Both the position numbers and the translations under genes were made by a program. From positions 1 through 37,034 of the forward strand of contig JAOUNK010000003.1 of the NCBI GenBank assembly GCA_029881015.1: a DNA stretch of 37,034 bases, written 5' to 3'. Position 1 is the stretch's first letter; every line of letters starts with the position of its first letter. This document shows positions 15,127 to 32,600 of this stretch, piece by piece. Under the pieces are notes generated by a model. That model searched no databases. It worked only from the letters and a program-made list of their open reading frames with translations, and was not told the origin of the DNA. This DNA comes from Gammaproteobacteria bacterium (GTDB lineage: Bacteria > Pseudomonadota > Gammaproteobacteria > Steroidobacterales > Woeseiaceae).

Positions 15127-16115
15127 TCCTTTGTGACCTTCCAGCTACTCGGGCCCTTGATGAAATCCCGGACGCGCCTGGTGCGTTGCATGCGCGATGG
15201 GTGGTGGGCGTAAAACGTATCTTCGAAGCTGATCGCCGGTTGCCGGTAGATGACGCCCATGGCGACCGGCATGTTCAGGTCGATAAGCAGTCTCGCGACG
15301 ATCGCGTTGCCTTCATCGTGTATGAGCACCTCATCCGGCGCCTCGGTCGCGTCGATGACTTCGAGTGACCAGGTGTCCTGGTTGAAGCGCATACCCTTAC
15401 CCTTGTTCTCGCCGAACAGCATGGGTTCGCCATGTTTGACGTGCAGCTGCGTGTTGGCGGCCGTCTTGCGTTCGGTGAAGCCCGCAAAGACGTCTTCGTT
15501 ATAAACGATGCAGTTCTGGAAGATCTCGATGAATGCCGTACCGGTAAACGCATGGGCCTGCTGCAGCACGTCGCTCATGCCGACCTTGTCGGTATCGACG
15601 CCGCGTGCAAAGAAGTGCGTGCCACAACCCATCGCGAACTGCCCCGGCGAGATCGGCGTGTCGACCGATCCCTTGGGACTGGACGGCGAGGTCGTACCCA
15701 CGCGGGACGTCGGGGAATACTGCCCTTTCGTCAGTCCGTAGATTTCGTTATTGAACAGCAACATCTTGAGGCCAACGTTGCGGCGCAATGCGTGCATCAG
15801 GTGATTGCCGCCAATCGACAGGCTGTCGCCGTCTCCGGTGACCACCCAGACGTCGAGTCCCGGGTTCGCGAGCTTCAGGCCGGTCGCGATCGCCGGAGCA
15901 CGACCGTGAATCGTGTGAAAGCCGTAGGTCTCGACATAGTAAGGGAATCGCGATGCGCAGCCGATGCCGGATACGAATGCCGTGTTCGCCGGATCCGCAC
16001 CCGCGTCGGCGAGCGCCTTCTGCACGGCCTTGAGTATCGCGTAGTCCCCGCAACCGGGACACCAGCGCACTTCCTGCGATGTCGCGAAGTCCCTGGCGGT
16101 CAGCTTGTCGTTCAT
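15123..16115 (-). CDS. korB: 2-oxoacid:ferredoxin oxidoreductase, beta subunit
   Basis: WCPGCGDYAILKAVQKAL, TYGFHTIHGRAPAIATGLKLANPGLDVWVVTGDGDSLSIGGNHLMHALRRN (TPP-binding). Confidence 0.92.
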   Translation of the reverse strand: MNDKLTARDFATSQEVRWCPGCGDYAILKAVQKALADAGADPANTAFVSGIGCASRFPYYVETYGFHTIHGRAPAIATGLKLANPGLDVWVVTGDGDSLSIGGNHLMHALRRNVGLKMLLFNNEIYGLTKGQYSPTSRVGTTSPSSPKGSVDTPISPGQFAMGCGTHFFARGVDTDKVGMSDVLQQAHAFTGTAFIEIFQNCIVYNEDVFAGFTERKTAANTQLHVKHGEPMLFGENKGKGMRFNQDTWSLEVIDATEAPDEVLIHDEGNAIVARLLIDLNMPVAMGVIYRQPAISFEDTFYAHHPSRMQRTRRVRDFIKGPSSWKVTKD

Positions 16116-17950
16116 GATGCCTCCCTGCGTACAGCTTCAATCTTGTCGACGAGCTCCCGGATCAAGAACGGCTGGCCGGTAACCTTGCTGAAAGGAATGG
16201 GCTCCACGCACAGGTTTGCCCGCAGCAGGGCAGTCAGCTGTCCCGCGTTCATCTCGGGAACCAGGACCTTGTCAAAACGGCTGAGCAATTCCCCGAGATT
16301 CCCCGGCAGGGGATTCAGGTGGCGCAGATGGATGTGGCTCACGCCCGTACGCCGCGTTGCCTGGTATATCGGACCGTAGGTCGATCCCCAGCCGACAACG
16401 ACAAGGTCTCCGCTGTCCGGGCCGTGCTCGATTTTCTGGTCGCCGATGAACGCCGCGACGGCATCGATCTTCGCTGCACGCAGGTCGGTCATGCGTTGGT
16501 GGTTCGCGGGATCGTAGGAGATATGCCCGGAGTCGATGTCTTTCTCGAGGCCGCCGATGCGATGCATCAGGCCCGGCATCCCGGGACTTACCCACGCGCG
16601 CCCCAGGCTTGCCGGGTCCCTCGTGAAGGCGCGGCGCTGCGGGCTGTCATCCGAATCCGGCACCGGGTTCGTCGCAATCGCTGCGAACGCCGAGAGCTCG
16701 GGAATCCGCCACGGCTCTGCAGCATTCGACAGGTAACCATCAGCAAGGAGAATCACCGGCGTCATGTGCCGCAGCGCGATACGCGTCGCTTCGATGGCCA
16801 TCTCGAAACACTCGCCGGATGTCGACGCAGACAGCACCGGGATCGGCGTGTCGCCATTGCGGCCGTACACGGCCTGGTAGAGATCCGACTGTTCGGTCTT
16901 GGTTGGCAGTCCCGTGGACGGTCCACCGCGTTGCCAGTTGATAATGAGTAGCGGCAGCTCCGCACTTACCGCCAGACCCATTGCCTCGGCCTTCAGCGCA
17001 AGACCGGGGCCGGAGCTCGACGTGACTCCGATCATGCCGCCATAGGATGCACCGATGGCCGCACAGATCGCGGCGATTTCGTCCTCGGCCTGGAACGTGC
17101 CCACGCCGAGCTCGGCGAGATGCGTGAGCCTGTGCAGCAGGGGAGACGCCGGCGTGATCGGGTAGGAGCAAAACAGAACCGCGCGATCCGAAAGTTCGCC
17201 CGCGGCGGCAATCCCGAGCGCCATGGCTTCGGCGCCGGTAATGCCGCGATAGTCGCCTGGCGCCATATCGGCCGACGGCAGTTTGACCTGGGACAGGTTG
17301 GCAGAAAGCTCCGCCGTTTCGCCAAAAGCATGGCCCGCGTGCAGCGCCTTGATATTGGCATCCCGCATGGTCGGTTGACCGGCCAGCCGGCGCCGGATCC
17401 ATTCCTCGACCGGCTGCAATTCCCGATCGAACATCCACAAGAGCATGCCGAGGGCATAGAAATTCTTGCAGCGCCCGCCCTCGGACTTGCTCAGGCCGAA
17501 TTCCTTGACGGACTCGAGATTCAGGTGACTGATGTCGGCCGCGACGACCTGGTAGTCATTCAGCGTGCCGTCGCCAAGCGGGTCGCTGTCGTAGCCCGCC
17601 TTGGCCAGGTTGCGGTCCGTGAAGGTGTCGGTATTGACGATAAGCAGCGCGCCTTTGTCGAGCATCGGCAGGCTGACTTTGAGGGCGGCCGGGTTGAACG
17701 CGACCAGCACTTCCGGGGCGTCGCCGGCCGTGGTTATCGGGCCGCCACCCAGGTTGATCTGGTAGGCCGAGACGCCGAACGTGGTACCCACGGGGGCCCG
17801 AATTTCCGCAGGGTAATCGGGGAACGTCGCGAAATCGGCGCCCGCCAGCGCGGTCGAGACCGCGAACTGCGATCCCATGAGTTGGATTCCGTCGCCCGAA
17901 TCGCCTGCAAGGCGAATAACGACCGACTCCAGATCATTGTTTTTATTCAC
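16112..17950 (-). CDS. korA: 2-oxoacid:acceptor oxidoreductase, fused gamma-alpha subunit
   Basis: GTG start at 17950 (VNKNNDLESVVIRLAGDSGDGIQLMGSQFA); gamma domain then CSYPITPASPLLHRLTHL, FQAEDEIAAICAAIGASYGGMIGVTSSSGPGLALKAEAMGLAVSAELPLLIINWQRGGPSTGLPTKTEQSDL. Confidence 0.92.
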   Translation of the reverse strand: MNKNNDLESVVIRLAGDSGDGIQLMGSQFAVSTALAGADFATFPDYPAEIRAPVGTTFGVSAYQINLGGGPITTAGDAPEVLVAFNPAALKVSLPMLDKGALLIVNTDTFTDRNLAKAGYDSDPLGDGTLNDYQVVAADISHLNLESVKEFGLSKSEGGRCKNFYALGMLLWMFDRELQPVEEWIRRRLAGQPTMRDANIKALHAGHAFGETAELSANLSQVKLPSADMAPGDYRGITGAEAMALGIAAAGELSDRAVLFCSYPITPASPLLHRLTHLAELGVGTFQAEDEIAAICAAIGASYGGMIGVTSSSGPGLALKAEAMGLAVSAELPLLIINWQRGGPSTGLPTKTEQSDLYQAVYGRNGDTPIPVLSASTSGECFEMAIEATRIALRHMTPVILLADGYLSNAAEPWRIPELSAFAAIATNPVPDSDDSPQRRAFTRDPASLGRAWVSPGMPGLMHRIGGLEKDIDSGHISYDPANHQRMTDLRAAKIDAVAAFIGDQKIEHGPDSGDLVVVGWGSTYGPIYQATRRTGVSHIHLRHLNPLPGNLGELLSRFDKVLVPEMNAGQLTALLRANLCVEPIPFSKVTGQPFLIRELVDKIEAVRREAS

Positions 17951-18110
17951 AAAAATGGATTCTTTTCGGTGCAGGGCTCTTGCCCCATTAAGCGTTTGAT
18001 CGAGAGTGTAGCGCAATCGGGTCGCCGGCTGGCATGTCCGACAATCCCGGCTTGATTGGCGGCCCGACTTCGCTTAGCTTACGCGCTCTGTCCAAAGGAA
18101 GGGTCCCACC

Positions 18111-18434
18111 ATGACGTTCGTTGTCACCGAAGCCTGTATCAAGTGCAAACTGACGGATTGCGTCGAGGTCTGCCCCGTGGATTGCTTTCACGAAGGGCCG
18201 AATTTCCTCGTCATCGATCCCGACGAGTGCATTGACTGCACGCTGTGTGAACCCGAGTGCCCGGTCGAGGCGATCTACTCGGAAGACGAGCTGCCGGCTG
18301 GCCAGGAGCAGTACCTGGCACTCAACGCCGAGCTGGCGCTGGAATGGCCCGTCATCACCGAGATGAAGGAGCCGCCCGCCGACGCCGACGAGTGGCGTGA
18401 GGTCAAGGATAAACTCAAGTATCTCGAGCGATAA
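18111..18434 (+). CDS. fdxA: 7Fe-type ferredoxin FdxA
   Basis: [56 protein letters not shown]. Confidence 0.97.
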
Positions 18435-19482: not shown

Positions 19483-20850
19483 TCAGAACCCCGCCTGTCT
19501 CTGCGAGTCGTCGTACATTTTTGTCAGGAAAGAACGGATGGCGGGTTCCGCCTCTTCTTTCGTCATCAGTTTCTGGCTCTCGAGGACCACGGCCATGTCC
19601 TTGATGGAGCGCCGGCCGTCGATCAGCGACATGATGAACGAGTAGATCTGCGTGGTCATGGCCTGCTGGCGGAAGGACGGCGACAGCGGGACCGGATCGT
19701 TGCCGGTCACTATCCAGTCAGGGAGGGCCTTGTGCCGCTCCGGCCTGCTCGCGTCGCGTTCCTTGTAGGCAGAGAACGTAAAGACGCGCTCCTGCCGTCC
19801 ATGGCGGCTCGCGGGAGAGCACATGTAAGGGATCGTCGCCTGCGACACGTAGGGGTCGGAGAAACCGCTTTCAGCGACGATTGCCTTGACCTCTTCGGGG
19901 CTGTAGTGCCGCGCCTTCTGCGGCGATGAAAACGCGAGCGAGCCGAAGTTCACCCAGCGACCGTCCGGCTTGAGCAGGCGATTGATTCGCGCCGCGAGTA
20001 CCGGCAGGTCTTCGGTGATGATGTCGATGAGCCACGGCGTGACGACGGTATCGAAGGACATCTCGGGAAACGGTGGCCGCAGCGCATCGCCGAGTACGAG
20101 GTGGAAGCCGTCGCCGACGACCTCGGGTGCCGCAAGCTTGCGCAGCACGGCGTCGTCCTCGAGCGCGCGCGGTGCGATCGGGAACTCGTAGAGGCTCAGC
20201 TTCTCGCCCTGTGTCACTGCCCTGGCAACCATCATAAGCAAAGGATTGAAGTCCATTGCAACCGTTGCCGCACATGCCATGGTCCTGTGGATATCGTAGG
20301 CCAGGCGACCGGCGCCCGCGCCGAGGACAAGGACGTTCCCGAGTTCGGCGTGATCGTGCAGGACCGCCTGTACCTGCTTCAACGAGGCTTGGTTTTCTTC
20401 GTCGCCCCAGGCCCAGTCTCGATGAATATTGGAATAGTAGGTATTGAGGCCCTGGTCGGTAGGCAGTCGTGTGCGGAGTGCAAGGTAACTCTCGAAGCTG
20501 CCTTGCATGGACTGCACTTCAAGTGGCCGCAGGAGCTTCTGTAATTTGCGCCGATGCGAATCCACGCATTTCTTGTACCTGTCCACGCGGCGACGCGCGA
20601 GCGACGTCATGTCGTCGCTCTTGAGTTCCCGCTCCAGCCCGGCAATCTCATGGCCAAGCTGCTGCAGCGCAAACTGCAATCTGCCGCGCCACTCGCCGAG
20701 CGTGGCCTGCGGCTCCGCAAACATCCACGGTATGCCGCCAACGGAGGGGAAATCGACCTTGCAGGCCTTGCAGTGCAGTCGCTCGCCGGTCGGTTCGAGG
20801 GGCGTCTTGTCACAACGCGGGCAGGCGAGCAAGGCGTTAAGTTCGGTCAT
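19483..20850 (-). CDS. class I SAM-dependent methyltransferase with N-terminal Trm112-like zinc ribbon
   Basis: N-terminus LLACPRCDKTPLEPTGERLHCKACKVDFPSVGGIPWMF (CxxC...CxxC); NVLVLGAGAGRLAYDIHR SAM-binding loop; LVLGDALRPPFPEMSFDTVVTPWLIDI. Confidence 0.85.
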   Translation of the reverse strand: MTELNALLACPRCDKTPLEPTGERLHCKACKVDFPSVGGIPWMFAEPQATLGEWRGRLQFALQQLGHEIAGLERELKSDDMTSLARRRVDRYKKCVDSHRRKLQKLLRPLEVQSMQGSFESYLALRTRLPTDQGLNTYYSNIHRDWAWGDEENQASLKQVQAVLHDHAELGNVLVLGAGAGRLAYDIHRTMACAATVAMDFNPLLMMVARAVTQGEKLSLYEFPIAPRALEDDAVLRKLAAPEVVGDGFHLVLGDALRPPFPEMSFDTVVTPWLIDIITEDLPVLAARINRLLKPDGRWVNFGSLAFSSPQKARHYSPEEVKAIVAESGFSDPYVSQATIPYMCSPASRHGRQERVFTFSAYKERDASRPERHKALPDWIVTGNDPVPLSPSFRQQAMTTQIYSFIMSLIDGRRSIKDMAVVLESQKLMTKEEAEPAIRSFLTKMYDDSQRQAGF

Positions 20851-20867
20851 GACTGGGGATTATGCAC

Positions 20868-20904
20868 AAAAAAACGGCCAGCCGAAGGGATGCGACTGGC
20901 CGTT
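20868..20904 (-). terminator. Rho-independent terminator of the minus-strand DUF1501/cytochrome operon
   Basis: Perfect 9-bp arms (plus-strand coordinates AACGGCCAG 20873-20881 and CTGGCCGTT 20896-20904); on the minus strand the stem is followed by a run of seven T (partly overlapping the stem). Lies just after the DUF1501 stop at 20974. Confidence 0.85.
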
Positions 20905-20973
20905 CCATTGCCGTGCTGTAGCGCGGCGGCGTAGCTCTCGCTATGCGGGGTTGGCAATTGTTGCCTGCACGAT

Positions 20974-22599
20974 CTACGCGACAGGTACCGTCCCGTTCAC
21001 GATCGGCTCAAAGGCCGTGAAGCGGTCGAGGTCGCTGCCGAGGCCATGGCCGATGCCAAGTCCCTGGTAGATCGCGGCGAAATCGCCCGTCGTCACCTGG
21101 CCATGCAGCGCCATGTAGTTCAGCACGATGGAGTTGACGAGCAGGTTAACGTTGTTCGCCATCGGCGTGGCTGCACGCTGTACCGAGCCGCCGGCATCCA
21201 TGTAACCGAGCTGCTGATGTCGCAATTGCTCGTCGAGCGTCGCGCCCTTGAGCACCGGCCGGCCACCCAGTCGCGGCGGGTTATAAACCAGGAAGAACGA
21301 ACCGGCCGTCGATGAGTTGTCGCTGGTCCACTCGCCCTTGCCGCGGCCATCGCCGGAGTTGTCGATCGCACCGTTCGATGAGAGCGAGCCGTCACTAAAG
21401 ACGTACAGCATGAGCGGCATGTCGAGCTTCGCGGCATACTCGAGGCAGGCGCCCATGCACTGACCGGCACGGAAGTCCTTGACCTCACCCTCGGCGCGTG
21501 CGCCGCCATGGTAGTCGTAGCCACCCATCTCGACGCAGCCGGCGCCGGCGAAACCGTTCATGACGAGCTTCATGACCGAAGCGGTCTTCTGGAACTCGCG
21601 CGAATCGCGATTGCCTGCAAAGAACTCGGTGTCCAGGAAGATACCGGAGCCGTCGGCGGCAACGATGTCCGTGTCGAGGCCCGGGTCGATCGGCGTACCG
21701 CCGAAGCGGTCCGCGATGTGCGCGGCCTTGAGATAGCCGCAGCGTACGGCCTTGTCGATATCGGCATCGCGTGCGACGAGTGTATCGACGTTGACCATCT
21801 TTTCGTCCGACAGCCTGTAAATCGACTCCATGACCTTCGTGGCATCGTCCTTGCTGAGAATGCCGACGAGGTCGCCCGTGTCGACGAGGTTGACGACGTC
21901 ACTGGGACGATCGACCTTGGTCGGGCGCAGTTCCGGGTTAAACAGCGGCAATGGCAATGTCGAGTTACCACCCGAGTCCGTGTTCTCCGAGCCGGCAAGG
22001 CCCAGGATGGAGCCCTTGGCACCAGCCAGCGCAATGCCGTACAGCGGGTTATGCGGGTTGTTGCCCGTGTCGTTATCCGAGCGCGCCGGTATGACCGCAC
22101 CGTTGATATTGGCGGCCGTTGCCGCGCTCACGCGTGACAGGATGCCGCGGCGAAATGCGCTGTCGAAGTGGAACCCCAGCCCCAGGTCGAAGTTTGCGTA
22201 CGGGTTGCCGTTCGGATCGTTGAGGCTTGGCACCATGTCGCCGGGCAGCCCCATCTTCTCGTAGCCATTGGCGGCGAGGAAGTCGCTCTGGCCGCCTTCC
22301 CGGCCGACCAGTACGTTCGAGCCGGCGATGTTGGCGCCGCCCGCAAGGTCGAAGCAGATAAACGGGATTTTGCCGGCGCCGTCAGTGATGTTGCACTGGG
22401 AAGGCGCGCGCAGCGCGTCCAGGTCCGCTGCCAGGTCGGCGTATGCGCGCGTACCCAGCAGGGGGGCAATGCCACCCACTGTGTAGGCCGCGCCCGTCAT
22501 GAATCCCTGCGACAGGAACTGGCGCCGCGTGACAGGACGCGGATGATCGGCGTGAAATTGCGGCAAGTCGAAGTTGCCTCTGTTGCGTTTCATGGTCAT
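20974..22599 (-). CDS. DUF1501-like Tat-exported protein
   Basis: MTMKRNRGNFDLPQFHADHPRPVTRRQFLSQGFMTGAAYTVGGIAPLLGTRAYA (Tat motif RRQFL); PFICFDLAGGANIAGSNVLVGREGGQSDFL, CLEYAAKLDMPLMLYVFSDGSLSSNGAIDNSGDGRGKGEWTSD. Confidence 0.75.
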   Translation of the reverse strand: MTMKRNRGNFDLPQFHADHPRPVTRRQFLSQGFMTGAAYTVGGIAPLLGTRAYADLAADLDALRAPSQCNITDGAGKIPFICFDLAGGANIAGSNVLVGREGGQSDFLAANGYEKMGLPGDMVPSLNDPNGNPYANFDLGLGFHFDSAFRRGILSRVSAATAANINGAVIPARSDNDTGNNPHNPLYGIALAGAKGSILGLAGSENTDSGGNSTLPLPLFNPELRPTKVDRPSDVVNLVDTGDLVGILSKDDATKVMESIYRLSDEKMVNVDTLVARDADIDKAVRCGYLKAAHIADRFGGTPIDPGLDTDIVAADGSGIFLDTEFFAGNRDSREFQKTASVMKLVMNGFAGAGCVEMGGYDYHGGARAEGEVKDFRAGQCMGACLEYAAKLDMPLMLYVFSDGSLSSNGAIDNSGDGRGKGEWTSDNSSTAGSFFLVYNPPRLGGRPVLKGATLDEQLRHQQLGYMDAGGSVQRAATPMANNVNLLVNSIVLNYMALHGQVTTGDFAAIYQGLGIGHGLGSDLDRFTAFEPIVNGTVPVA

Positions 22600-22625
22600 C
22601 TCAAATATTCCCTTTTGTCCTGTCT

Positions 22626-25208
22626 TTACTGAACCAGTGTGGCTGCGCTGCCGAGTACGGAGGCGCATACACCCTTGGCGATGGCACGTGTATCACTTGT
22701 GCCCGCAAGAAGCCTGTCCACCAGGTTCTCCGGGCGAGGACCCGTTGCCGGGAACGACGCGAGTTCGCCATGCACATCGGCATAACTTGGCTGCGACAGG
22801 ATCTGTGCGCTCGTCGACGAGTGGCCAACCGCACTCTGGATCAGCGGTTCGACGAATGCGTCGCGATTGCCGACGCTGAACGCGGTGGCCGGAGCGGCGT
22901 CGAAGTTGAAGCCCGGCCACAACGTGGCGTTCTCAACGGCGGCGTCACAGTACTGGATCGCGAGCTGTGCGATGGCGACCTGGTGCGATGACAGGAACGC
23001 TTCGGCAAATTCGACCGCCGGCAGCGACTGCCGGAGCTCCTGGTAGGTCTCGTCAACCATGAAGATGCCACCGCGCTGGTAGGTTACGCGGTCGATGCCC
23101 GTAATCGCTGCGTAGGTCGCATCGATCTCGTCAAACGTCTTCATGCCGATATCCGCACTGGCGGTCGCGGCGGTCGCAACGTAGTCAGCGACGGTGAGCA
23201 TCGGATCTTCCGGCCTGTCGTAAGTCGCGCCATTGAGATCGTCGAAAGTCAGGAAGAACTCGTCGAGATCCGGTCCTTTCTCGAGCGGCAAGACCGCACC
23301 GAGCGTGGCGTTGAGGACCATCAGCGGCTGACCGAGTTCATCGAGTACTGCCGGGTTGGACAAGTCGAGCGATTCGATCATGTTGGCGTAGCTCTGGCCG
23401 ACCGGCGCTTCCTGGCCGTTCATCGCGATACGCATGCCCTCGAGTCCAATACCTTGCGGCGTGGAGCCATCGAGCGTGACGAAGTGCGGCTTGTCGAACA
23501 GGTACGCGTACGAGTCGTATTGCTGTGCCTCGAACAGGACGTACGACGTCTGTATGGGCGCACCGATCAGGTGCGAGATGTCGAACAACAGGTAGAAGCG
23601 TTCGCCAACTCCCGCGTCGTAGTTCTGGTTGATCTGCTCCTGGGTCAGTGCACGGCGGTGGATAGCCGCGAGGCGGAAGGTGCCTTCCCACAATCCGTCG
23701 CTGGATGCTTCGTTGCCGAGGATCAGCGCGAAGTTGTTCTGCCACGGCACTAGCGTGCCACCCGGTACCGGATCGGTCTGGGTAACCAGCGTGCCGTTCA
23801 CGAAGATCTTGCGACCCTCGATCGGGCTGTACGTCGCAACCACGTGCTGCAGCGTTGCCTGGAGTACCTCGGCAGCATCCGGCGTCGAGAGCTGCGGATC
23901 GCCGTTGAGCGTGGTCAGCGGGTTGCCATTGGCATCCTCGGCGTTCGTGCGCAGCAGGAAGTCGTAGTTATACAGGGTTTGCTGCAGCGTGAAGTTGCGC
24001 GCTGCCTGGCCGGCCGAGTAGCTGACGATGCGCGACATTTCCTGCGTCACGTTCGCCGGCACAACCCATGCCTCGATCGAGAATTCGCCCGAATCGACCA
24101 GGATGTCATGCAGCTTGCGGCTTGCGACCGTCGAGCCCTGGGCCTTGCCCGGGCCGACCGCCATGTCGGCACCAATCGTGATGCCCCAGCCGCCATACCA
24201 GGTAACGTCGCCCGAGAAGTTCAGGTCAATGGCCGGGTCGACGCCGCTGGTATCAAAGGCCGTCGAGCCGGTGCCCGTCTTGAACTCCCAAAGCGCAATC
24301 TGGTCGTTTTCGTAACGGTTACCGCCCGAGGCGACCGTACCGTCAACGAGGCGGACAGCTTTACTGTATACAAGGGCGGGATCGACAACAGTGGGCTGGA
24401 TAGCGTTGACGAAGCCGGTCACCGCGGCGAGCATTTCAGCGCCCGAGCTCACGCAGTCACTGTTGTTCCAGCAGTTGTGGAACTCGTCGCGAACGCGAAC
24501 GACGAAGCGCGAGTTGCCTACCGTGTCAGGGTCAAGATTGATCTTCGACTTCGCGGCTTCGTACGCCACATTGACGTCGGGGTCGGCGAAGTAGGGTTGT
24601 TGTGCCGTGGCCGACTCCGAGCTATGGCAGCGCTGGCAGTACGGCACGAGAATATCGTCGTACAGCCACTGCTCGAACAGTGCGGTGTCTTCCGGGAAGT
24701 TCCGGCTGTTGCTCGGATCGCGATCAGGCGGGGCCGTAAGCGATACCTGGCGACCGCCACCTGAGGTGGTGCCGAGCCAGTTCTCGATCCAGGTCGTCAT
24801 GATCGTTCCGCAGGTGGCGGGATCGTCGACCCAGCAATTGTGACCCAGGGGCGGTGAGCTGACCTTGGTGACAAACTCCGACAACGAAGGCTGGGTTGCG
24901 TCGATATGGTCCACGGCCTCGTCGTAGGCCATGTTGACATCGTCCGAACGAACGAACGGCTTCTGACCGCCGGTCTCGCTGTGACAGTTGCCGCAGCGGT
25001 CTGGTGTCCGCGCCTTCGACCAGAATTCCTGCTGGAATCTCAGTACTTCGGCGTCGCGCGCGACGGGACCAGTATAAGGGTTGCTGCCGGTGTTGTTGTT
25101 GCCGTTTGGGGCGGCCGGGTTCAGTTCCGTTTGTGCGCCACCGCCGCAGGCTGCGAGTACAAGGCTCGCGAGCAGGGTGGCAATTCGTGATGCGTGATTC
25201 ATCGTCAT
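22626..25208 (-). CDS. c-type cytochrome lipoprotein with two CXXCH domains and a LamG-like domain
   Basis: Lipobox LVLAACGGG; CGNCH and CQRCH; LamG/concanavalin-like region (ILVDSGEFSIEAWVVPANVTQEMSRIVSYS ... LQHVVATYSPIEGRKIFVNGTLV). Confidence 0.8.
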   Translation of the reverse strand: MTMNHASRIATLLASLVLAACGGGAQTELNPAAPNGNNNTGSNPYTGPVARDAEVLRFQQEFWSKARTPDRCGNCHSETGGQKPFVRSDDVNMAYDEAVDHIDATQPSLSEFVTKVSSPPLGHNCWVDDPATCGTIMTTWIENWLGTTSGGGRQVSLTAPPDRDPSNSRNFPEDTALFEQWLYDDILVPYCQRCHSSESATAQQPYFADPDVNVAYEAAKSKINLDPDTVGNSRFVVRVRDEFHNCWNNSDCVSSGAEMLAAVTGFVNAIQPTVVDPALVYSKAVRLVDGTVASGGNRYENDQIALWEFKTGTGSTAFDTSGVDPAIDLNFSGDVTWYGGWGITIGADMAVGPGKAQGSTVASRKLHDILVDSGEFSIEAWVVPANVTQEMSRIVSYSAGQAARNFTLQQTLYNYDFLLRTNAEDANGNPLTTLNGDPQLSTPDAAEVLQATLQHVVATYSPIEGRKIFVNGTLVTQTDPVPGGTLVPWQNNFALILGNEASSDGLWEGTFRLAAIHRRALTQEQINQNYDAGVGERFYLLFDISHLIGAPIQTSYVLFEAQQYDSYAYLFDKPHFVTLDGSTPQGIGLEGMRIAMNGQEAPVGQSYANMIESLDLSNPAVLDELGQPLMVLNATLGAVLPLEKGPDLDEFFLTFDDLNGATYDRPEDPMLTVADYVATAATASADIGMKTFDEIDATYAAITGIDRVTYQRGGIFMVDETYQELRQSLPAVEFAEAFLSSHQVAIAQLAIQYCDAAVENATLWPGFNFDAAPATAFSVGNRDAFVEPLIQSAVGHSSTSAQILSQPSYADVHGELASFPATGPRPENLVDRLLAGTSDTRAIAKGVCASVLGSAATLVQ

Positions 25209-25214
25209 GTCTCC

Positions 25215-26438
25215 CTACTGGCCTTTGCAGTGATCCGCGGCGTCCGCGAATACCCGTTTCATCTGGAAACCGCTCGCAGCGAAACTGCCCATGATCTCGT
25301 CAACCCTGGTGTGATCCGCGGGTGACTCGGGTTCACGCAAGCAGACGGCCTGGAATACTTTCTTCACCTGGCAACTGGCAAATGCGTCACTGTTGGAAAG
25401 TTCGACGCCCAGTGACTTGGCGCCGTTGTCGTCGCCGTTACCCGGGCCGTTAAAGCCCAGGTAACGGTTCTGGCCTTCACGCCAGTAGTTGGTCCAGTGA
25501 TCGTCCGGTGTGCGAAAGCCCTGCGGGAAATTGAGGTCGTTGTTGAAGTACTTCGGCTGCACAACGCCGGCGGTGTACTCGATCGATCCGGCCGCTTCGT
25601 CGTAGTTGTAGTACGCGAAGGCCTGGGCCATCGGGTCCATACCGGTATGGCAGCCCACACAGTTATTAAGGAACAGGCGGCTGTCGCCACCCGGGCTGCG
25701 GCTCACGTCCTGACGGATTCGATCCGGCGACAGGCGAGGGTCATGCAGCTGTTCCATGTCAGCGCAGAAGTGGTTCACCATCGTAAAGCGGAACATCGCG
25801 CGGTTGGTACCCGCGATGAAAAAGGCTTCCGCCGCTGCTCGAGACGTCATGACGCCGGCAGTCGCGGCCGGTGGCAGGTTGTTGATACTCGATTGCGTGG
25901 TCGGTTCCAGCACGGCTTTCAGGTCGTGATTGCCTGCCTCAAGCTGCTGGTAATGGTCGTTGTTGTTGCCGGCGGGTGCGGTAGCCACCGTGCCGGCACG
26001 GCCGATGTATTGCAGGTCAGCCGACAAAACGGTCCGGAAATCGACGTCGTCGCGAATCATGCCGATGACGGTTGCGACATAGTCGTTCAGCGGTACGAAT
26101 ACCGAGCGGTCGCGGTTCGTCCATGGCGCGGCGAAGTTCTTCAGCGTCACGTTATAGAAGCTGCTGTTCTCCATCGCGATGTAGGCGGCGCATCGTGCGC
26201 CCACCACGCCATACTGTGCGCATGCAGGATCGGAACTCGCGATCGCGTTCTCCATCTGCAACAAAACTGCATCGGTCGGCGGTACGCCGGCAATGCGCTC
26301 ATGAATGCGCTTCGCCTGTTCCCTGGGACCTGCGTTCGCCGGCATCGACAATACTGTTAACAGTATTGCTGCCAGCGTGGCACGCAGGACTCCGCCGAGT
26401 CGGCCGTCCTTGTGTCCTGTCCACATGCTGTTTCTCAT
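25215..26438 (-). CDS. periplasmic CXXCH-containing protein resembling DUF1588/DUF1585-type cytochromes
   Basis: Signal peptide LRATLAAILLTVLSMPANA; single heme motif NNCVGCHTGMDPMAQAFAYYNYDEAAGSIEY; C-terminus FASCQVKKVFQAVCLREPESPADHTRVDEIMGSFAASGFQMKRVFAD. A start at 26426 (MWTGHK) is also possible. Confidence 0.65.
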   Translation of the reverse strand: MRNSMWTGHKDGRLGGVLRATLAAILLTVLSMPANAGPREQAKRIHERIAGVPPTDAVLLQMENAIASSDPACAQYGVVGARCAAYIAMENSSFYNVTLKNFAAPWTNRDRSVFVPLNDYVATVIGMIRDDVDFRTVLSADLQYIGRAGTVATAPAGNNNDHYQQLEAGNHDLKAVLEPTTQSSINNLPPAATAGVMTSRAAAEAFFIAGTNRAMFRFTMVNHFCADMEQLHDPRLSPDRIRQDVSRSPGGDSRLFLNNCVGCHTGMDPMAQAFAYYNYDEAAGSIEYTAGVVQPKYFNNDLNFPQGFRTPDDHWTNYWREGQNRYLGFNGPGNGDDNGAKSLGVELSNSDAFASCQVKKVFQAVCLREPESPADHTRVDEIMGSFAASGFQMKRVFADAADHCKGQ

Positions 26439-26654
26439 ATCGTTTTGCTCGTCATTCGTTATTTACGCAAAGCGTGGCCGGAAGATGTTGCCAGAGCCCC
26501 TCGCCCCTCGCCGTGAAAGCATTCACAGTCCTTGGGAGATCCCCTGCGACACTGCGGCCGCAACAAAAAGCGGATCTGCAATCTTTAAAGCAAGTGCTGT
26601 GCCAGACTTGTGTCCAACCCGGAAATAAGGACATTTATCCTTTAAAAACAGCGC

Positions 26655-26683
26655 ACTATAGGTCCGGTACAGGGGGCTGCTAA
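26655..26683 (-). promoter_or_regulatory. putative sigma70-like promoter for the minus-strand operon
   Basis: Minus strand TTAGCA (26678-26683), 17-nt spacer, TATAGT (26655-26660). By eye only. Confidence 0.35.
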
Positions 26684-26792
26684 AAGACGCTTATGTAAGG
26701 TCACTGTCGGTACTTGGGCACAACGATTATGACCAGGGGGCATAAGCTCCTGATAAAGCAAGGCCTTAGACCTGTCGCCGAAGGGAGACACA

Positions 26793-26810
26793 GTGTCACC
26801 CCTGTGACAC
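26793..26810. promoter_or_regulatory. inverted repeat GTGTCAC-N4-GTGACAC, candidate operator
   Basis: Perfect 7-bp arms GTGTCAC/GTGACAC separated by CCCT in the divergent intergenic region; an extra GACAC half-site immediately upstream (26787-26791). Confidence 0.5.
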
Positions 26811-26892
26811 CGCAAACAGCCGTCAAGCAGTGCCTGCGCTCACGGTTCCATGTCGTGCTTTTGAGACATTACATCCACTTACGAGGGTCTCC

Positions 26893-26898
26893 TATAAT
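26893..26898 (+). promoter_or_regulatory. putative -10 element (TATAAT) for the HzsA-related operon
   Basis: Perfect TATAAT in GC-rich DNA 82 bp before ATG 26980; the -35 match is weak (TTACAT 26869-26874). Confidence 0.45.
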
Positions 26899-26979
26899 CC
26901 GGCGTCGGGTTTGTGACTGCGTTAACGGTATACGGCGCGTGGCACAACGTACCCTGCCCAATCACTAGAGGTGAGCGCT

Positions 26980-29766
26980 ATGACAAGGCTATCGCGGCAA
27001 TTTGCGAAAGGAATCAACGGTACAGTGACCAGGACGGTCGCGTTGTCGCTGGCGTGCGTGGCTATTGCCGCTTGCAGCAAGGGTGACGGTGTCCAGATTG
27101 GCACCGGCCAGAATCCGGACCCCGTGGTGATCGATTTTCCGATTGCCTATATCAAATCTCCGCTTCCTGTCGACGACAATGGCGTGTTCGCGCAACAGGA
27201 TCTGCGCGAACAGATTACCTTCGACTTCGGTGCGGATCTTTATTTTCGGGATAGGGCAGCCGTTGGCGCAGAGCCGATCAACATAACCGGCGATATTACG
27301 CAAGGCATGGGCGCTGTTCGCGATGTCGAGATCGACTACGACGGAAGCCGCCTGCTGTTCTCGATGCGTACGCCATTCGACCCGAATGTCGACGAAGACG
27401 ACCAGGTGGCGACCTGGAACATTTGGCAGTACACGTTCGAAACGGCTGAGTTGATCCGGGTTATCCCGGACAACCTGACGTCGGAGATCGGGCACGACAT
27501 CATGCCGAAGTACCTGCCTGACGGGCGCATCGTCTTCTCGTCGACGCGGCAGACACAGTCGCAAGCCCTGTTGCTCGATGAGAACAAGGGTGCGTTCCCG
27601 GCGATGGACGAGGATGAGAACGAATTCGCGTTCAACATCCATGTAATGAACGACGATGGTTCGGGACTGAAGCAGATCACCTTCAACCAGAGTCACGACC
27701 TGGACCCCTCCGTCATGGCCGATGGCAAGATCGTCTTCAGCCGCTGGGACCACAACATGTCCAACGACCAGGTCAACCTGTACCGGATGAACCCGGACGG
27801 TTCGGCCATTGAGTTGCTTTACGGTCAGTGGAGTCACGACACGGGAACCAACGGCGCGACGATTCAGTTCATGCAGCCGCGGCAAACCGAAGACGGCCTC
27901 ATCATGGTCGTTGCGCGCCCATTCACCGATACCGATGGCGGTGGCAATCTTATTGTTATCGACACAGCGCAGTATGTTGAGAATACGCAGCCGACGAGGG
28001 ACAACATAGGTGTCCTGACCGGCCCTGCGCAGGCAGATGCGACCGTCAACGACGTCGTCACAGAGCCGGGCCAGCCGTCTCCGGGCGGCCGCTACTACTC
28101 GGTTTTCCCGATCCAGGACGGTACGGGGCGCCTGATGGTCAGCTGGAGCCAGTGCCGGCTCATCGAAGGCCTCGCGGATGACGGGGACCCGAATACCGAC
28201 GATTCCCGGATCGTGCCGTGTACCGCCGCGAACCTTGTCAGCGTTGTGGCCGGCAATCCCGCCGACCCGGTCGCACCGGCGCCTGGCGAATTCGTGGTTG
28301 CGCCCCCGCTGTACGGCGTCTGGATCTACGATCCGCGTGACCAGACGCAGCTGCCCATCGTCGCAGGCGAAGAGGGCTTCATGTTTACCGAGGTGGTTTC
28401 TGCGGATCCCCGCCCGGCGCCGGTGGTCATTCCTGACAACCTCAATTACTACTTGCAGGATCCGTCGTTGCCCGATTCCGGTGAAGCGGTTCTGAATATT
28501 CGCAATGTGTACGACTTCGACGGTGCCATACTCCCGGGCATCGATCCGTACGTGTTGGCCGACCCGGCCCGGTCGCTGGCCGCCGACCGGCCGGCGCGTT
28601 TCCTGCGTATCGAGAAAGCCGTCTCGTTGCCGGATGAAGACCTGCTCGATATCGATGACACGGCATTCGGGGTTACGACAAATTTCGGCATGAAGGAAAT
28701 CGTGGGCTATGCGCCGATCGAGCCCGACGGTTCGGTCGTGGTCAAAGTACCGGCAAACGCAGCGCTCATGATCAGTGTGCTCGATGAGAACGGCATGAGC
28801 ATCACCCAACGCCACGCGAACTGGATAGCAGTCCCGGAGGGCCAGGAGCTCAAGTGCAATGGCTGTCACGATGCGAACAGCGGCGTCTCGCACGGTCGCT
28901 ACGATGCCTTTGAAAGCGCCTATGCCGGTGCGCCGACAGCCGGCGTCGCATTCAATCCGAATACGGATCCGCAGTGGTTTGTCGGTGAGGTCGGCGAAAC
29001 GATGGCCGAGGTGCGCGCACGCATAACGTGCGCAGGGGACAATTGCTCATCCATCGAGCCGTCGATGAATCTCATTTATCGGGATGTCTGGAGCGCCAAC
29101 CCGGTCGACATCAACGGCGTGCCTTTCAATCCCGATATCGATTACCGCTATACGGACCTGACCACGCCGCCGCCCACGTCGCCGGCCTGTCAATCGGACT
29201 GGCGCTGGAACTGCCGCAGCATCATCAACTACATCACGGTGATTCATCCGCTCTGGAGTCAGCCGCGCATCCAGATGGTTGACGATGACAACGACCCGGC
29301 GACACCCGACGTACCCTTGCTGGATGCGAACGGCAACCCGGTCAACGACAATTGCCTCAACTGCCATACACCGCTCGATGTTGTGAATAACGTTGCGCGG
29401 GTACCGGCCGGTCAACTCGAGCTGCAGGATGGCTTGTCGGTCGACGAGCCCGATCACTATCACGCCTATCGCGAGCTGTTACTTACTGATAACCTTCAGG
29501 TATTAGACGCCAATGGCACATTGGTGGATGCGACGCAGGTGATCGGTCAGGACGCAGACGGAAATGACATCCTGGCCCCGATCCCTACACCGCCGCCGGC
29601 GTCGGCTGGCAGCGCGAGGGCCTCGAGCGATTTCTTTGACCGTTTCAACGATCCTAACGATCTTCATTTCAATATTTTATCGCAGGCGGAACGACGCCTC
29701 ATTGCGGAATGGTTGGATGTCGGAGCCCAGTACTACAACAATCCCTTCGACGCTCCAGCCAATTAA
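26980..29766 (+). CDS. HzsA-related lipoprotein, PD40/TolB-like propeller with two CXXCH motifs
   Basis: ATG 26980 with AGAGGTGA RBS; CVAIAACSKG lipobox; propeller-like repeats LPDGRIVFSSTRQ and MADGKIVFSRWDHNMSNDQVNLYRMNPDGSAIELLYG; heme motifs CNGCH (28855-28869) and CLNCH (29353-29367). Confidence 0.8.
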   Translation: MTRLSRQFAKGINGTVTRTVALSLACVAIAACSKGDGVQIGTGQNPDPVVIDFPIAYIKSPLPVDDNGVFAQQDLREQITFDFGADLYFRDRAAVGAEPINITGDITQGMGAVRDVEIDYDGSRLLFSMRTPFDPNVDEDDQVATWNIWQYTFETAELIRVIPDNLTSEIGHDIMPKYLPDGRIVFSSTRQTQSQALLLDENKGAFPAMDEDENEFAFNIHVMNDDGSGLKQITFNQSHDLDPSVMADGKIVFSRWDHNMSNDQVNLYRMNPDGSAIELLYGQWSHDTGTNGATIQFMQPRQTEDGLIMVVARPFTDTDGGGNLIVIDTAQYVENTQPTRDNIGVLTGPAQADATVNDVVTEPGQPSPGGRYYSVFPIQDGTGRLMVSWSQCRLIEGLADDGDPNTDDSRIVPCTAANLVSVVAGNPADPVAPAPGEFVVAPPLYGVWIYDPRDQTQLPIVAGEEGFMFTEVVSADPRPAPVVIPDNLNYYLQDPSLPDSGEAVLNIRNVYDFDGAILPGIDPYVLADPARSLAADRPARFLRIEKAVSLPDEDLLDIDDTAFGVTTNFGMKEIVGYAPIEPDGSVVVKVPANAALMISVLDENGMSITQRHANWIAVPEGQELKCNGCHDANSGVSHGRYDAFESAYAGAPTAGVAFNPNTDPQWFVGEVGETMAEVRARITCAGDNCSSIEPSMNLIYRDVWSANPVDINGVPFNPDIDYRYTDLTTPPPTSPACQSDWRWNCRSIINYITVIHPLWSQPRIQMVDDDNDPATPDVPLLDANGNPVNDNCLNCHTPLDVVNNVARVPAGQLELQDGLSVDEPDHYHAYRELLLTDNLQVLDANGTLVDATQVIGQDADGNDILAPIPTPPPASAGSARASSDFFDRFNDPNDLHFNILSQAERRLIAEWLDVGAQYYNNPFDAPAN

Positions 29767-30511
29767 GGCCTTCATCGCCTATTGCCTGTGTGCCGTCGTA
29801 CTGCAGAGTTTTCTGTCGGCACCGGCCTTCGCTGCCGATGAGCTTCGTTCTGTCGTGGTTGCCGACCCGTATCTCGAAATGCGCACGGGTCCCGGCAACG
29901 GCTATCCGGTCTTTCACGTGGTCGACCGAGGCGAGTCGGTGCAGATCGTCATGCAACGCACAAGCTGGTACCTGGTGCGCTCCGCTCGTGGCCAGGAAGG
30001 CTGGGTCGAGCGGGCCCAGATGGAGAAGACGCTGCAACCTGATGGGCAGCAGGTCAGTTTCGCCGCCGCGACACTTGAAGACTTCACCAATGCCAAGTGG
30101 GAGACAGGTGTGCTGGCCGGTGACTTCGGTGGCGCGAACATCGTTTCCCTGTACGGCAGCTATTCATTGAATCCTAACGTAGCCGTGGAGTTCTGGGGTT
30201 CGCAGATTCTGGGCAACTTTTCGAACGGCTGGATGGCGAGTTTCAATATAGTGCACGAGGCCTTTCCGGAGTGGCGTGTCTCGCCGTACTTCAAGCTCGG
30301 TGCCGGCGCAATCTACACCAAGCCCAAGTCAACGATCATCCTCGGAGAGGACCGCACGGACCAGATCGGTCATGTCGGTGCCGGGTTCCGGGTCTATACC
30401 GCGCGACGTTTCCTGTTGCGCGCCGAATACAACAGCTACGTGGTCTTCACGAGCCGTGATGAAAATGAGGAAATAGAAGAATGGAAAGTCGGTTTCGCGT
30501 TCTTTTTCTGA
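29717..30511 (+). CDS. bacterial SH3-domain + outer-membrane beta-barrel protein
   Basis: ATG 29717 (MSEPSTTTIPSTLQPIKAFIAYCLCAVVLQSFLSAPAFAADE); SH3b-like LEMRTGPGNGYPVFHVVDRGESVQIVMQRTSWYLVRSARGQEGWV; barrel C-terminus ending GFAFFF. Confidence 0.78.
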   Translation: MSEPSTTTIPSTLQPIKAFIAYCLCAVVLQSFLSAPAFAADELRSVVVADPYLEMRTGPGNGYPVFHVVDRGESVQIVMQRTSWYLVRSARGQEGWVERAQMEKTLQPDGQQVSFAAATLEDFTNAKWETGVLAGDFGGANIVSLYGSYSLNPNVAVEFWGSQILGNFSNGWMASFNIVHEAFPEWRVSPYFKLGAGAIYTKPKSTIILGEDRTDQIGHVGAGFRVYTARRFLLRAEYNSYVVFTSRDENEEIEEWKVGFAFFF

Positions 30512-31161
30512 TCGTTGCGATGATCAGCCTGTCGGGCTGCGCCGCGACGAAAAACCTGTTCGGTTTCGGCAACCGGGAGGCGCCGCCGCCTGCTGCTGAG
30601 GCACCGGGCCAGGTTATCGACCCCCAGGTCGAACGTCGTGAGATAAAGGAACCAAAGATCGATCGCGAGGACTTCGAGGTTGGTGCCTACGCGGGCATCA
30701 TGAGTATCGAGGACTTCGGCAGCAACGTCGTTTACGGTGCGCGAATTGCCTACCACATTACCGACGGGTTTTTCATGGAAGCCACGGTAGGGCAGACGGA
30801 AGGGGGGCTGACCAGTTTCGAGGTTCTGTCCGGTGGCGCCCGCCTGATCACCGACAGCGAACGCACGATGACGTATTACAACCTGAGTGTGGGCTACAAC
30901 ATCCTGCCCGGCGAAGTCTTTCTCGGCGAGGGACGCGCCTTCAACACCAACCTGTATCTGATCGCGGGACTTGGCTCGACGACGTTCGCAGGCGATGACC
31001 GGTTTACGGTGAATGTGGGTGCCGGCTACCGCTTCCTGCTGACGGACTCGGTTGCACTGCATCTCGATTTCCGTGATCACCTGTTTGATATTGACCTTCT
31101 CGGTGAAGAGAAGACAGCTCACAATCTCGAAGGCCACCTTGGCGTTACGGTGTTCTTCTGA
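30481..31161 (+). CDS. outer-membrane beta-barrel lipoprotein (same barrel type as upstream gene)
   Basis: Lipobox MISLSGCAATK; DFEVGAYAGIMSIEDFGSNVVYGARIAYHITDGFFMEATVG ... ending GHLGVTVFF. Start lies 31 bp inside the upstream gene. Confidence 0.78.
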   Translation: MESRFRVLFLIVAMISLSGCAATKNLFGFGNREAPPPAAEAPGQVIDPQVERREIKEPKIDREDFEVGAYAGIMSIEDFGSNVVYGARIAYHITDGFFMEATVGQTEGGLTSFEVLSGGARLITDSERTMTYYNLSVGYNILPGEVFLGEGRAFNTNLYLIAGLGSTTFAGDDRFTVNVGAGYRFLLTDSVALHLDFRDHLFDIDLLGEEKTAHNLEGHLGVTVFF

Positions 31162-31208
31162 GGCAGGGGTCACACTCCGGGCGGGTTTCCTTGGGATAAG
31201 GTACTGAT

Positions 31209-31451
31209 ATGAAGAAAACAGTTTCACTCACAGGCAGACTGCTGTTGCCATTGCTCGCAATGGCGGCCCTGTCCGGTTGCAGCGGCATCGAGCCCTGGGT
31301 CAAGCCCTACGAGCGCGACAAGCTGGCCGATCCGATCATGGCGCTCGATGGTGATCCCGTATCAACCGCGTATATCCAGCATGTCTTTGAAGCACGTGAA
31401 GGTGCACGCGGCGGTGAAGGCGCCGCCGGCGGCGGCTGCGGCTGTAACTAG
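31209..31451 (+). CDS. DUF4266-like small lipoprotein with Gly/Cys C-terminal tail
   Basis: Lipobox LSGCSG; EPWVKPYERDKLADPIMALDGDPVSTAYIQHVFEAREGARGGEGAAGGGCGCN. Confidence 0.82.
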   Translation: MKKTVSLTGRLLLPLLAMAALSGCSGIEPWVKPYERDKLADPIMALDGDPVSTAYIQHVFEAREGARGGEGAAGGGCGCN

Positions 31452-31463
31452 CGGATAGTATCG

Positions 31464-32600
31464 ATGATCCGTCGCGGACTGACATTTGCAACACTGCTGT
31501 TGGCGTTCGGCGTCGTGCACGCGGGCGTTTTGCCCGACGATCGCGCCGATGTCCTGTACCACCTGTACGACGGTGGTGGTGTAACGATTGACGGCCCGTC
31601 CGTACTTGTCCGCAAGAAAGCGGGCAAGAGTCTTTCCTTCGTCGGCAACTACTACGTCGACATGGTCAGCTCGGCATCGATCGACGTAATCACGACGGCC
31701 AGCCCCTATACGGAAGAGCGCAAGCAGTGGTCGCTGGGTATGGATTACCTGCACGGCAATACGACGATGCGCGTCAACTATACAAGCAGTGTGGAGTCTG
31801 ACTTCGATGGTGAAACCGTCAGCTTCTCGGTAAGCCAGGACATGTTCGGCGACCTGACGACGCTGACGCTGAGTTACGCGCTCGGCGACGATCTCGTGCG
31901 CATGTCGACGGATACGACGTTTGAAGAACCGCTGGACCGGCAGATCTACGGCGTGGGTATCACGCAGATTCTGACCAAGAATCTCATATCGTCGCTGAAT
32001 GTAGAAACGGTCACGGAAGAGGGTTACCTGAATAATCCCTACCGTTCCGTGCGCTATTTCGATGCGGCAACAGGCGGCTACGACTTCGAGAGAGAGCTTT
32101 ATCCCAATACGCGAACCAGCAATGCGGTCGGCCTGCGCATGAGATATTTCCTGCCGTACAGGGCGGCGGTGGAAGGCGAGTACCGCTTCTTTACCGACAC
32201 CTGGGACATCGAAGGTCATACGGTGTCATTGTCTTACATACATCCGTGGAAGGACTTTACGTTTACCGGCAAGCTCCGCTACCACGACCAGACCGGCGCG
32301 CATTTCTACAGGGACCTGTTTCCCGGGCCCCAGGCAACCAATTTCCGTGGTCGGGACAAAGAGCTCAGCCCGCTGACGAGTTACACGTTCAAGCTGCAGG
32401 CCGCGTATGAGTTCCTGAACGATGACGGCAACGACACTTTCGGCTTTATCAAGCGAGCGAAAGTCACCGCATCGCTCAACATGCTGAGCGTCGACTACCA
32501 CGATTTCTCGGACCTGACTGCACAGGAAGTCATCGGCAACGAGCCGCTCTATCAGCTGGACGCCAATATCTTCCAGTTCTACTTCTCGTTCTTCTACTAG
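31464..32600 (+). CDS. DUF3570-like outer-membrane beta-barrel protein
   Basis: Signal peptide; ADVLYHLYDGGGVTIDGPSVLVRKKAGKSLSFVGNYYVDMVSSASIDVITTASPYTEERKQWSLG; ends FYFSFFY; follows DUF4266. Confidence 0.85.
   Translation: MIRRGLTFATLLLAFGVVHAGVLPDDRADVLYHLYDGGGVTIDGPSVLVRKKAGKSLSFVGNYYVDMVSSASIDVITTASPYTEERKQWSLGMDYLHGNTTMRVNYTSSVESDFDGETVSFSVSQDMFGDLTTLTLSYALGDDLVRMSTDTTFEEPLDRQIYGVGITQILTKNLISSLNVETVTEEGYLNNPYRSVRYFDAATGGYDFERELYPNTRTSNAVGLRMRYFLPYRAAVEGEYRFFTDTWDIEGHTVSLSYIHPWKDFTFTGKLRYHDQTGAHFYRDLFPGPQATNFRGRDKELSPLTSYTFKLQAAYEFLNDDGNDTFGFIKRAKVTASLNMLSVDYHDFSDLTAQEVIGNEPLYQLDANIFQFYFSFFY

Follow-up and report, generated by a model that had tools for sequence, protein, structure and literature searches.

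Two gene clusters of the bacterial envelope bear on the locus described here. In the first, a flavinylation system of DUF3570, DUF4266, a thioredoxin and ApbE, experiments have shown that ApbE flavinylates DUF3570, and attention was drawn to a CxC at the C-terminal end of DUF4266 (Meheust et al. 2021, eLife, PMC8238504). The second is the Glt/Agl core, whose genes cluster in Gammaproteobacteria; it was regarded as a functional complex whose role was unknown (Luciano et al. 2011, PLoS Genet, PMC3169522). Here we analyse a stretch of 37,034 nucleotides (the window; GenBank assembly GCA_029881015.1, contig JAOUNK010000003.1, our contig C220) from a marine-sediment bacterium of the Woeseiaceae, whose assembly comprises 3.45 Mb in 483 contigs. 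The window carries a block of two divergent gene sets, or arms, predicted to encode exported heme proteins and outer-membrane barrels. Our comparisons of gene content and order indicate that a large part of the Glt-like core of 2011 and of the DUF3570/DUF4266/ApbE cluster of 2021 are the same system in Gammaproteobacteria.

Comparative genomics shows the full form of this system. In it, genes for a PSD2-like monoheme protein, a LamG diheme lipoprotein and a protein exported by twin-arginine translocation (the Tat protein), forming the minus arm, diverge from a plus arm coding for an HzsA-like diheme lipoprotein, an SH3-barrel, a TIGR04565 barrel, a TlpA-type thioredoxin, DUF4266 and DUF3570. 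Also part of the set are ApbE and an operon for a Glt/Agl-type core (X185, three TPR proteins, TolQ, two TolR and a GltG-like protein); in most Woeseiaceae the set is split over two loci. The block, ApbE, the thioredoxin and the core very probably constitute one system.

Conservation of the block and its core operon

A preliminary description of the window had read the block as an exported, heme-containing envelope redox system, and had made synteny of the two arms in relatives the test. In a tblastn comparison of the family (about 30 loci from 11 Woeseiaceae genera), gene order and orientation of both arms agree at every locus checked; a few Tat-protein rows that an overlap filter had removed were recovered in a further comparison. 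One flank of the block holds the same methyltransferase gene, the other usually LemA/DUF2207. One genome of 97% completeness (G036) exhibits a clean empty site, with the methyltransferase 0.5 kb from LemA and the entire block absent. In a divergent genus (G011) the plus arm consists of HzsA, SH3-barrel, TIGR04565 barrel, TlpA-type thioredoxin, DUF4266, DUF3570 and ApbE.

The class sample comprised 339 Gammaproteobacteria genomes; 40 class loci and 80 loci from a genome-wide scan were inspected, and the arm counts are based on the 69 class loci whose flanks were long enough at either end. The plus arm is complete in 66 of these 69 loci and the minus arm in 57; the thioredoxin is present in 59 and ApbE in 21. 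The core operon adjoins the block in 38, in many families other than the Woeseiaceae; there it follows either DUF3570/ApbE, at the plus end, or the Tat protein, at the minus end. HZS_alpha was detected in 47 of the class genomes, DUF4266 in 78 and both in 42, and at 39 loci DUF4266 lies 2.6-4.6 kb downstream of HZS_alpha on the same strand. ApbE closes the plus arm in some lineages and follows the minus-arm Tat protein in others, which ties both arms to it. The redox system of the preliminary description is supported, and synteny in the Woeseiaceae and in the class supports the two arms as one unit. The block is present in at least 23 families of the sample. Its carriers include chemosynthetic symbionts (Ca. 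Thiodiazotropha), relatives of Thiogranum and Thiohalobacter, abundant sediment Woeseiaceae and some cultured isolates, among them Aliiglaciecola sp. M165 (L178) and Aliikangiella coralliicola M105 (L170).

The core and the block occur together even when they are not neighbours. X185 profile scores are bimodal, and a core was called at 230 bits or above. Among the class genomes, 47 contain HzsA, 44 contain a core X185 and 41 contain both (Fisher p = 1.0e-42, uncorrected for phylogeny). Two of the three core-only genomes are cases of contigs ending inside the block, of which they carry the rest. The third (G077; L208, 600-13941) exhibits a reduced version without HzsA: the core, the SH3-barrel, the TIGR04565 barrel, the thioredoxin and a DUF3570 with a DUF4266-like N-terminus. 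In the Woeseiaceae sample, the core was found in 43 of 45 HzsA genomes and HzsA in 43 of 44 core genomes, though the two are mostly unlinked; G036 lacks the core as well as the block. Weaker X185 paralogues (about 50-190 bits) are mostly further core copies, and those inspected have no redox module beside them. Two such copies are in the window's genome (L201 on contig C36, L202 on contig C111).

No thioredoxin or ApbE gene lies within the window; the two stand together in trans on contig C407, and in most Woeseiaceae they likewise lie with the core at a separate locus. The window's genome contains three ApbE genes, one in an nqr-like operon (C146), one beside a canonical DUF3570 (C454) and the one on C407, which is followed by a TlpA-type thioredoxin, X185 and TPR genes. 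The C407 contig shows the TPR part of the operon up to the contig end. In a one-contig genome (G006; L198) the operon encodes ApbE, thioredoxin, X185 (185 aa), TPR619, TPR938, a TPR214 lipoprotein, a 143-aa protein, TolQ, TolR, TolR and the GltG-like protein. The last exhibits an AgmX/PglI tail (NF033768, E = 1.4e-17, above the cut-off) and a weaker GltG match. Against GltC/D/E, the TPR proteins exhibit just weak GltE matches, far below cut-off.

A phylogenetic analysis of ApbE places the C407 and G006 copies inside a clade of HzsA-block ApbEs (support 95/97), as sister to those of G011, L134 and L171 (92/92). The C407 copy stands apart from the copies linked to canonical DUF3570 and from the nqr copies, the nqr row being a long branch. 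At the canonical locus of the window's genome (L064; C454, 63-4958), MbnP (PF20243, E = 2e-36) and an MbnH-like diheme protein of the CCP_MauG type come after the DUF3570-ApbE pair. Such an MbnP-MbnH pair is known from copper-related tryptophan oxidation.

Predicted proteins, cofactors and neighbouring genes

All eight genes of the preliminary description are found in the open reading frame map where it had placed them, as are its two divergent gene sets, lipoproteins and three barrels (Table 1). The hidden Markov model search that it had called for matched SH3_3, DUF4266, DUF3570, Laminin_G_3, HZS_alpha and the myxobacterial-type barrel family (TIGR04565). Its count of five CXXCH motifs is likewise correct, with one in the PSD2-like, two in the LamG and two in the HzsA-like protein. 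The same counts are observed in 122/122, 108/108 and 130/138 relatives, respectively.

Table 1. Features of the divergent block, in window positions
Feature	Position	Strand	Basis
Intrinsic-terminator-like hairpin with T7, closing the minus arm	20868..20897	-	seen by eye
Tat-exported protein (formerly "DUF1501-like")	20974..22668	-	RR motif TRRQFL
LamG-domain diheme c lipoprotein	22626..25208	-	Laminin_G_3 E = 5e-18; two CXXCH
Exported monoheme protein, faintly PSD2/DUF1585- and DUF1588-like	25215..26438	-	sub-threshold Pfam; one CXXCH
Shared divergent intergenic control region, 532 bp	26439..26970		open reading frame map
HzsA-related beta-propeller diheme c lipoprotein	26971..29766	+	HZS_alpha E = 3.9e-15
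SH3 domain and small outer-membrane beta-barrel	29717..30511	+	SH3_3 E = 6e-10; OMP_b-brl E = 8e-6
Outer-membrane beta-barrel, TIGR04565 (OMP_myx_plus)	30481..31161	+	E = 1.4e-49, 168 bits vs cut-off 60
DUF4266 small lipoprotein, conserved CGCN (CxC) end	31209..31451	+	PF14086 E = 5e-23
DUF3570 16-strand beta-barrel, two ApbE-type motif sites (SSAS, TTAS)	31464..32600	+	PF12094 E = 4e-34

DUF3570 and DUF4266 belong to a catalogued ApbE-dependent flavinylation cluster, so that flavin is probably a cofactor beside heme in the block. The two motif sites of the window DUF3570 differ from the two [ST]GA[ST] of proven ApbE sites. At site 1, a D..[ST]xA[ST] pattern is kept in 130 of 132 relatives. 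The same [ST]SAS substitution is seen where ApbE is the direct neighbour, for which reason we consider [ST]SAS more likely a variant flavinylation site than a dead one. A loss of flavinylation in the window DUF3570, suggested by a motif lacking the G and by the lack of a local ApbE, was dropped as an explanation, since ApbE-adjacent clusters share [ST]SAS and a matching ApbE is present at C407. The AlphaFold model of DUF3570 (mean pLDDT confidence score 88.5) exhibits 16 strands, and places motif residues 69-80 in the beta3-beta4 loop, which we infer to face outward. Foldseek matches of this barrel are generic porins and alginate/Pel exporters, and say no more than "outer-membrane barrel".

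For the SH3-barrel gene the best start is ATG 29717, chosen from the reading frame, which overlaps hzsA by 50 bp. A 31-bp overlap (30481-30511) joins the SH3-barrel gene to that of the TIGR04565 barrel, and since this overlap is retained in most Woeseiaceae loci it suggests that the two are translationally coupled. The lipobox on the TIGR04565 barrel is not conserved (41/142). The C-terminal CGC of DUF4266 is also observed in relatives.

The HzsA-like protein matches HZS_alpha and PD40 (E = 6e-7) in Pfam, and its family profile matches the hydrazine synthase structure PDB 5c2v (E = 7e-17). Against the HzsA equivalog NF052339, however, the window protein scores 74.6 bits vs a cut-off of 800. 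In hydrazine synthase, Tyr591, four residues past the CXXCH histidine, is the heme alpha-I ligand (PMC12607021); a tyrosine four residues after the first CXXCH histidine was found in none of 138 homologues. HzsB and HzsC are both missing from the block, where every gene is otherwise accounted for; no search for them was made elsewhere in the genome. Hydrazine synthesis is ruled out for the canonical active site by the score, the ligand and the subunits missing from the block, and the preliminary description had rightly refrained from implying hydrazine chemistry. Many gammaproteobacterial "hydrazine synthase alpha" annotations are thereby placed in a non-anammox context. In a second subtype of the locus, HzsA has three hemes and the minus arm is missing (L072-L079, with exceptions). 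A second, much longer HZS_alpha class (open frames of 1267-1459 aa), unlinked to DUF4266, was observed at G269:C96, at C14 and C63 of G273, at G145:C40 and at G127:C19.

In the minus arm, the label "DUF1501-like" given earlier to the Tat protein found no support. No DUF1501 model matched it or any of its homologues (0/44 in Pfam), a PDB sequence search also gave no support, and DUF1501 membership was dropped. The protein is about 53-69% identical across the class. Its AlphaFold model (pLDDT 76) finds as top Foldseek matches members of the alkaline-phosphatase superfamily, at a non-significant E = 5e-3 and low TM-score (structural alignment), which is a hint only of an alkaline phosphatase/sulfatase fold. 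The CXXCH protein matches DUF1585 and DUF1588 at just 17.8 and 13.3 bits, short of the cut-offs of 25.8 and 27.

The shared control region measures 541 bp, as first described, if ATG 26980 is the start of hzsA, but 532 bp if GTG 26971 is. A promoter scan of this region gave one sub-consensus minus-strand site, fewer than in shuffles, and is uninformative. The proposed minus-arm terminator is recognisable by eye (GGCCAG, a 14-nt loop, CTGGCC, T7) but is not reported by a terminator scanner, because the loop exceeds its limit. Next to the minus arm lies a gene for a CARME-like methyltransferase (19483-20850). It also adjoins the Tat-protein gene in about ten loci of other lineages (L131, L134, L150, L152, L156, L161, L168, L173, L176, L187, L190), and may therefore be a functional neighbour; against this idea, the methyltransferase is kept in G036, which lacks the block. 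Further away (15123-18434), the window encodes a 2-oxoacid:ferredoxin oxidoreductase (POR_N/POR and thiamine pyrophosphate-binding (TPP) subunits) beside a ferredoxin with a DUF3470 tail.

Proposed function and alternatives

The overall explanation we favour, with confidence about evenly balanced, is that the block in the window serves a conserved gammaproteobacterial envelope system as its outer-membrane redox module. More tentative is the mechanism that we propose, a surface flavin/heme redox complex coupled to the proton motive force, of which the coupling, the surface flavin mononucleotide (FMN), the electron path and the substrate are drawn from family knowledge. The TolQ-TolR proton channel and the GltG-like protein would span the inner membrane, and the TPR proteins and the SH3 barrel (probably peptidoglycan-binding) would link the proton motive force to the outer-membrane complex. 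ApbE would put FMN on the DUF3570 barrel, on the predicted outward loop, and this FMN and the hemes on the two lipoproteins, HzsA-like and LamG, would make up a short electron chain. Thiol electrons might come from the thioredoxin and the CxC pair of DUF4266, or these might keep cysteines reduced. The likely role would be to modify by redox chemistry a substrate that is extracellular or attached to the surface, or to exchange electrons with it; this substrate might be a LamG-recognised polymer. A Glt/Tol-type trans-envelope core that is driven by the proton motive force and physically operates such a complex would be an unrecognised kind of envelope machine, a possibility we would sooner question than assert.

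Several observations weigh against this explanation. The counts of core and HzsA take no account of phylogeny, and Glt-type core copies exist without an adjacent redox module (L203-L207). The G077 locus contains no cytochrome gene at all, hence hemes are not indispensable. The outward placing of the DUF3570 loop follows only from a loop-length rule (periplasmic N-terminus, long loops outside). SGAS occurs at site 1 in only 10 of 132 relatives, the motif being D..[ST]SAS / TTAS, unlike the published [ST]GA[ST].

A first alternative, unlikely but deserving attention, is a Glt/Nfs-like machine that builds or remodels a surface polysaccharide or envelope layer, in which the heme and flavin proteins would cross-link by oxidation, and the glycan would be handled by the LamG protein and the one with the alkaline-phosphatase fold. 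The Myxococcus Nfs machinery, the closest Glt homologue, is required for spore maturation (PMC3169522), and PSCyt cassettes of the Planctomycetes-Verrucomicrobia-Chlamydiae (PVC) phyla carry LamG and lie near sulfatases (PMC5615132). The LamG domain and the weak alkaline-phosphatase/sulfatase fold of the Tat protein would fit such a role, but that fold match is not significant, and no glycosyltransferase or polysaccharide gene is conserved in block or core.

Alternatively, extracellular electron transfer of the plain kind, with a metal oxide or electrode, might run through a flavin/cytochrome conduit made of the diheme lipoproteins, the barrels and DUF3570, the core being a mere maintenance partner; MtrCAB genes reported from sediment Woeseiaceae show that there is a niche for it (PMC12175321). 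We regard this as rather improbable, given that the block encodes five hemes only and no multiheme wire-like cytochrome, and that it co-occurs near-perfectly with the core. The block is also present in Kangiellaceae and Alteromonadales relatives, e.g. Aliikangiella and Aliiglaciecola, which are aerobes, and this again argues against a conduit.

Redox-assisted, TonB-like import of a metal, or of a complex of one, by way of a barrel is more improbable still. The GltG C-terminus is TonB-like, TolQ/TolR are energisers, and a VIT1 iron transporter occurs in 25 of the DUF3570 clusters in Meheust 2021 (PMC8238504). Pfam and NCBIfam searches found no TonB-dependent receptor plug domain in the barrels, however, and no transporter gene is among the conserved neighbours.

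It is very improbable that the arms are two unrelated operons merely sharing a promoter region. The second subtype, with plus arm and core and no minus arm (L072-L079), would agree with this, but the minus arm is conserved in the checked Woeseiaceae loci and complete in 57 of the 69 class loci, the whole block is gone in G036, and ApbE occurs at the end of either arm. Finally, hydrazine synthase or another anammox-like nitrogen activity can be practically dismissed, despite the HZS_alpha match (E = 3.9e-15) and the similarity to 5c2v, on the 74.6 vs 800 bits, a Tyr591 position that is never Tyr in 138 homologues and the lack of a beta or gamma gene in the block.

Relation to described systems

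The preliminary description had assigned the block to no known pathway. Neither half has a described function, and to that extent the statement stands, but both halves had already been catalogued separately, in 2011 and 2021, as widespread gene sets. Their union, with the HzsA-like, LamG, monoheme and Tat parts, was not found in the literature searched, nor were ApbE, TolQ, TPR and cytochromes found in one text, most subscription journals and all preprints being outside the search; a single paper in it names DUF3570 or DUF4266. The main text of PMC8238504 makes no mention of hydrazine or hydrazine synthase, beta-barrel, TPR or ExbB, and PMC3169522 does not mention cytochromes or thioredoxin. 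The proposed envelope machine, if real, would give a common function to two orphans, the Glt core of Gammaproteobacteria and the DUF3570 flavinylation cluster. Two open questions thus become one, testable by gene deletion in isolates.

The minus arm resembles the PSCyt/PSD cassettes of Planctomycetes and Verrucomicrobia in combining cytochrome domains and LamG with an adjacent, conserved and unexplained protein. In contrast to those cassettes, the window's PSD2/PSCyt3 matches are sub-cut-off and its partner protein has no DUF1501 match. With hydrazine synthase HzsA (PDB 5c2v) the window protein shares a beta-propeller, an HZS_alpha middle domain, a C-terminal heme region and a similar two-CXXCH layout, but it is a lipoprotein, lacks the heme alpha-I Tyr ligand and has no beta/gamma subunit genes in its block.

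The cluster of Meheust et al. (PMC8238504) has in common with the window system the DUF3570 barrel, an adjacent DUF4266 with C-terminal CxC, a thioredoxin-like protein and ApbE. All of it is found in cis in G011 and at many class loci, whereas it lies at two loci in the window's genome. The window system differs in its [ST]SAS/TTAS motif, as against [ST]GA[ST], and has in addition two diheme lipoproteins (HzsA-like and LamG), a monoheme protein, the Tat protein, two more barrels and the Glt-type core. With the core of Luciano et al. (PMC3169522) it shares, in Gammaproteobacteria, one operon with TolQ, two TolR, a GltG-like protein (AgmX/PglI tail) and TPR proteins. The motility-specific group A genes were not reported outside Deltaproteobacteria; the window-type copy of the core is genetically tied to a flavin/heme outer-membrane module.

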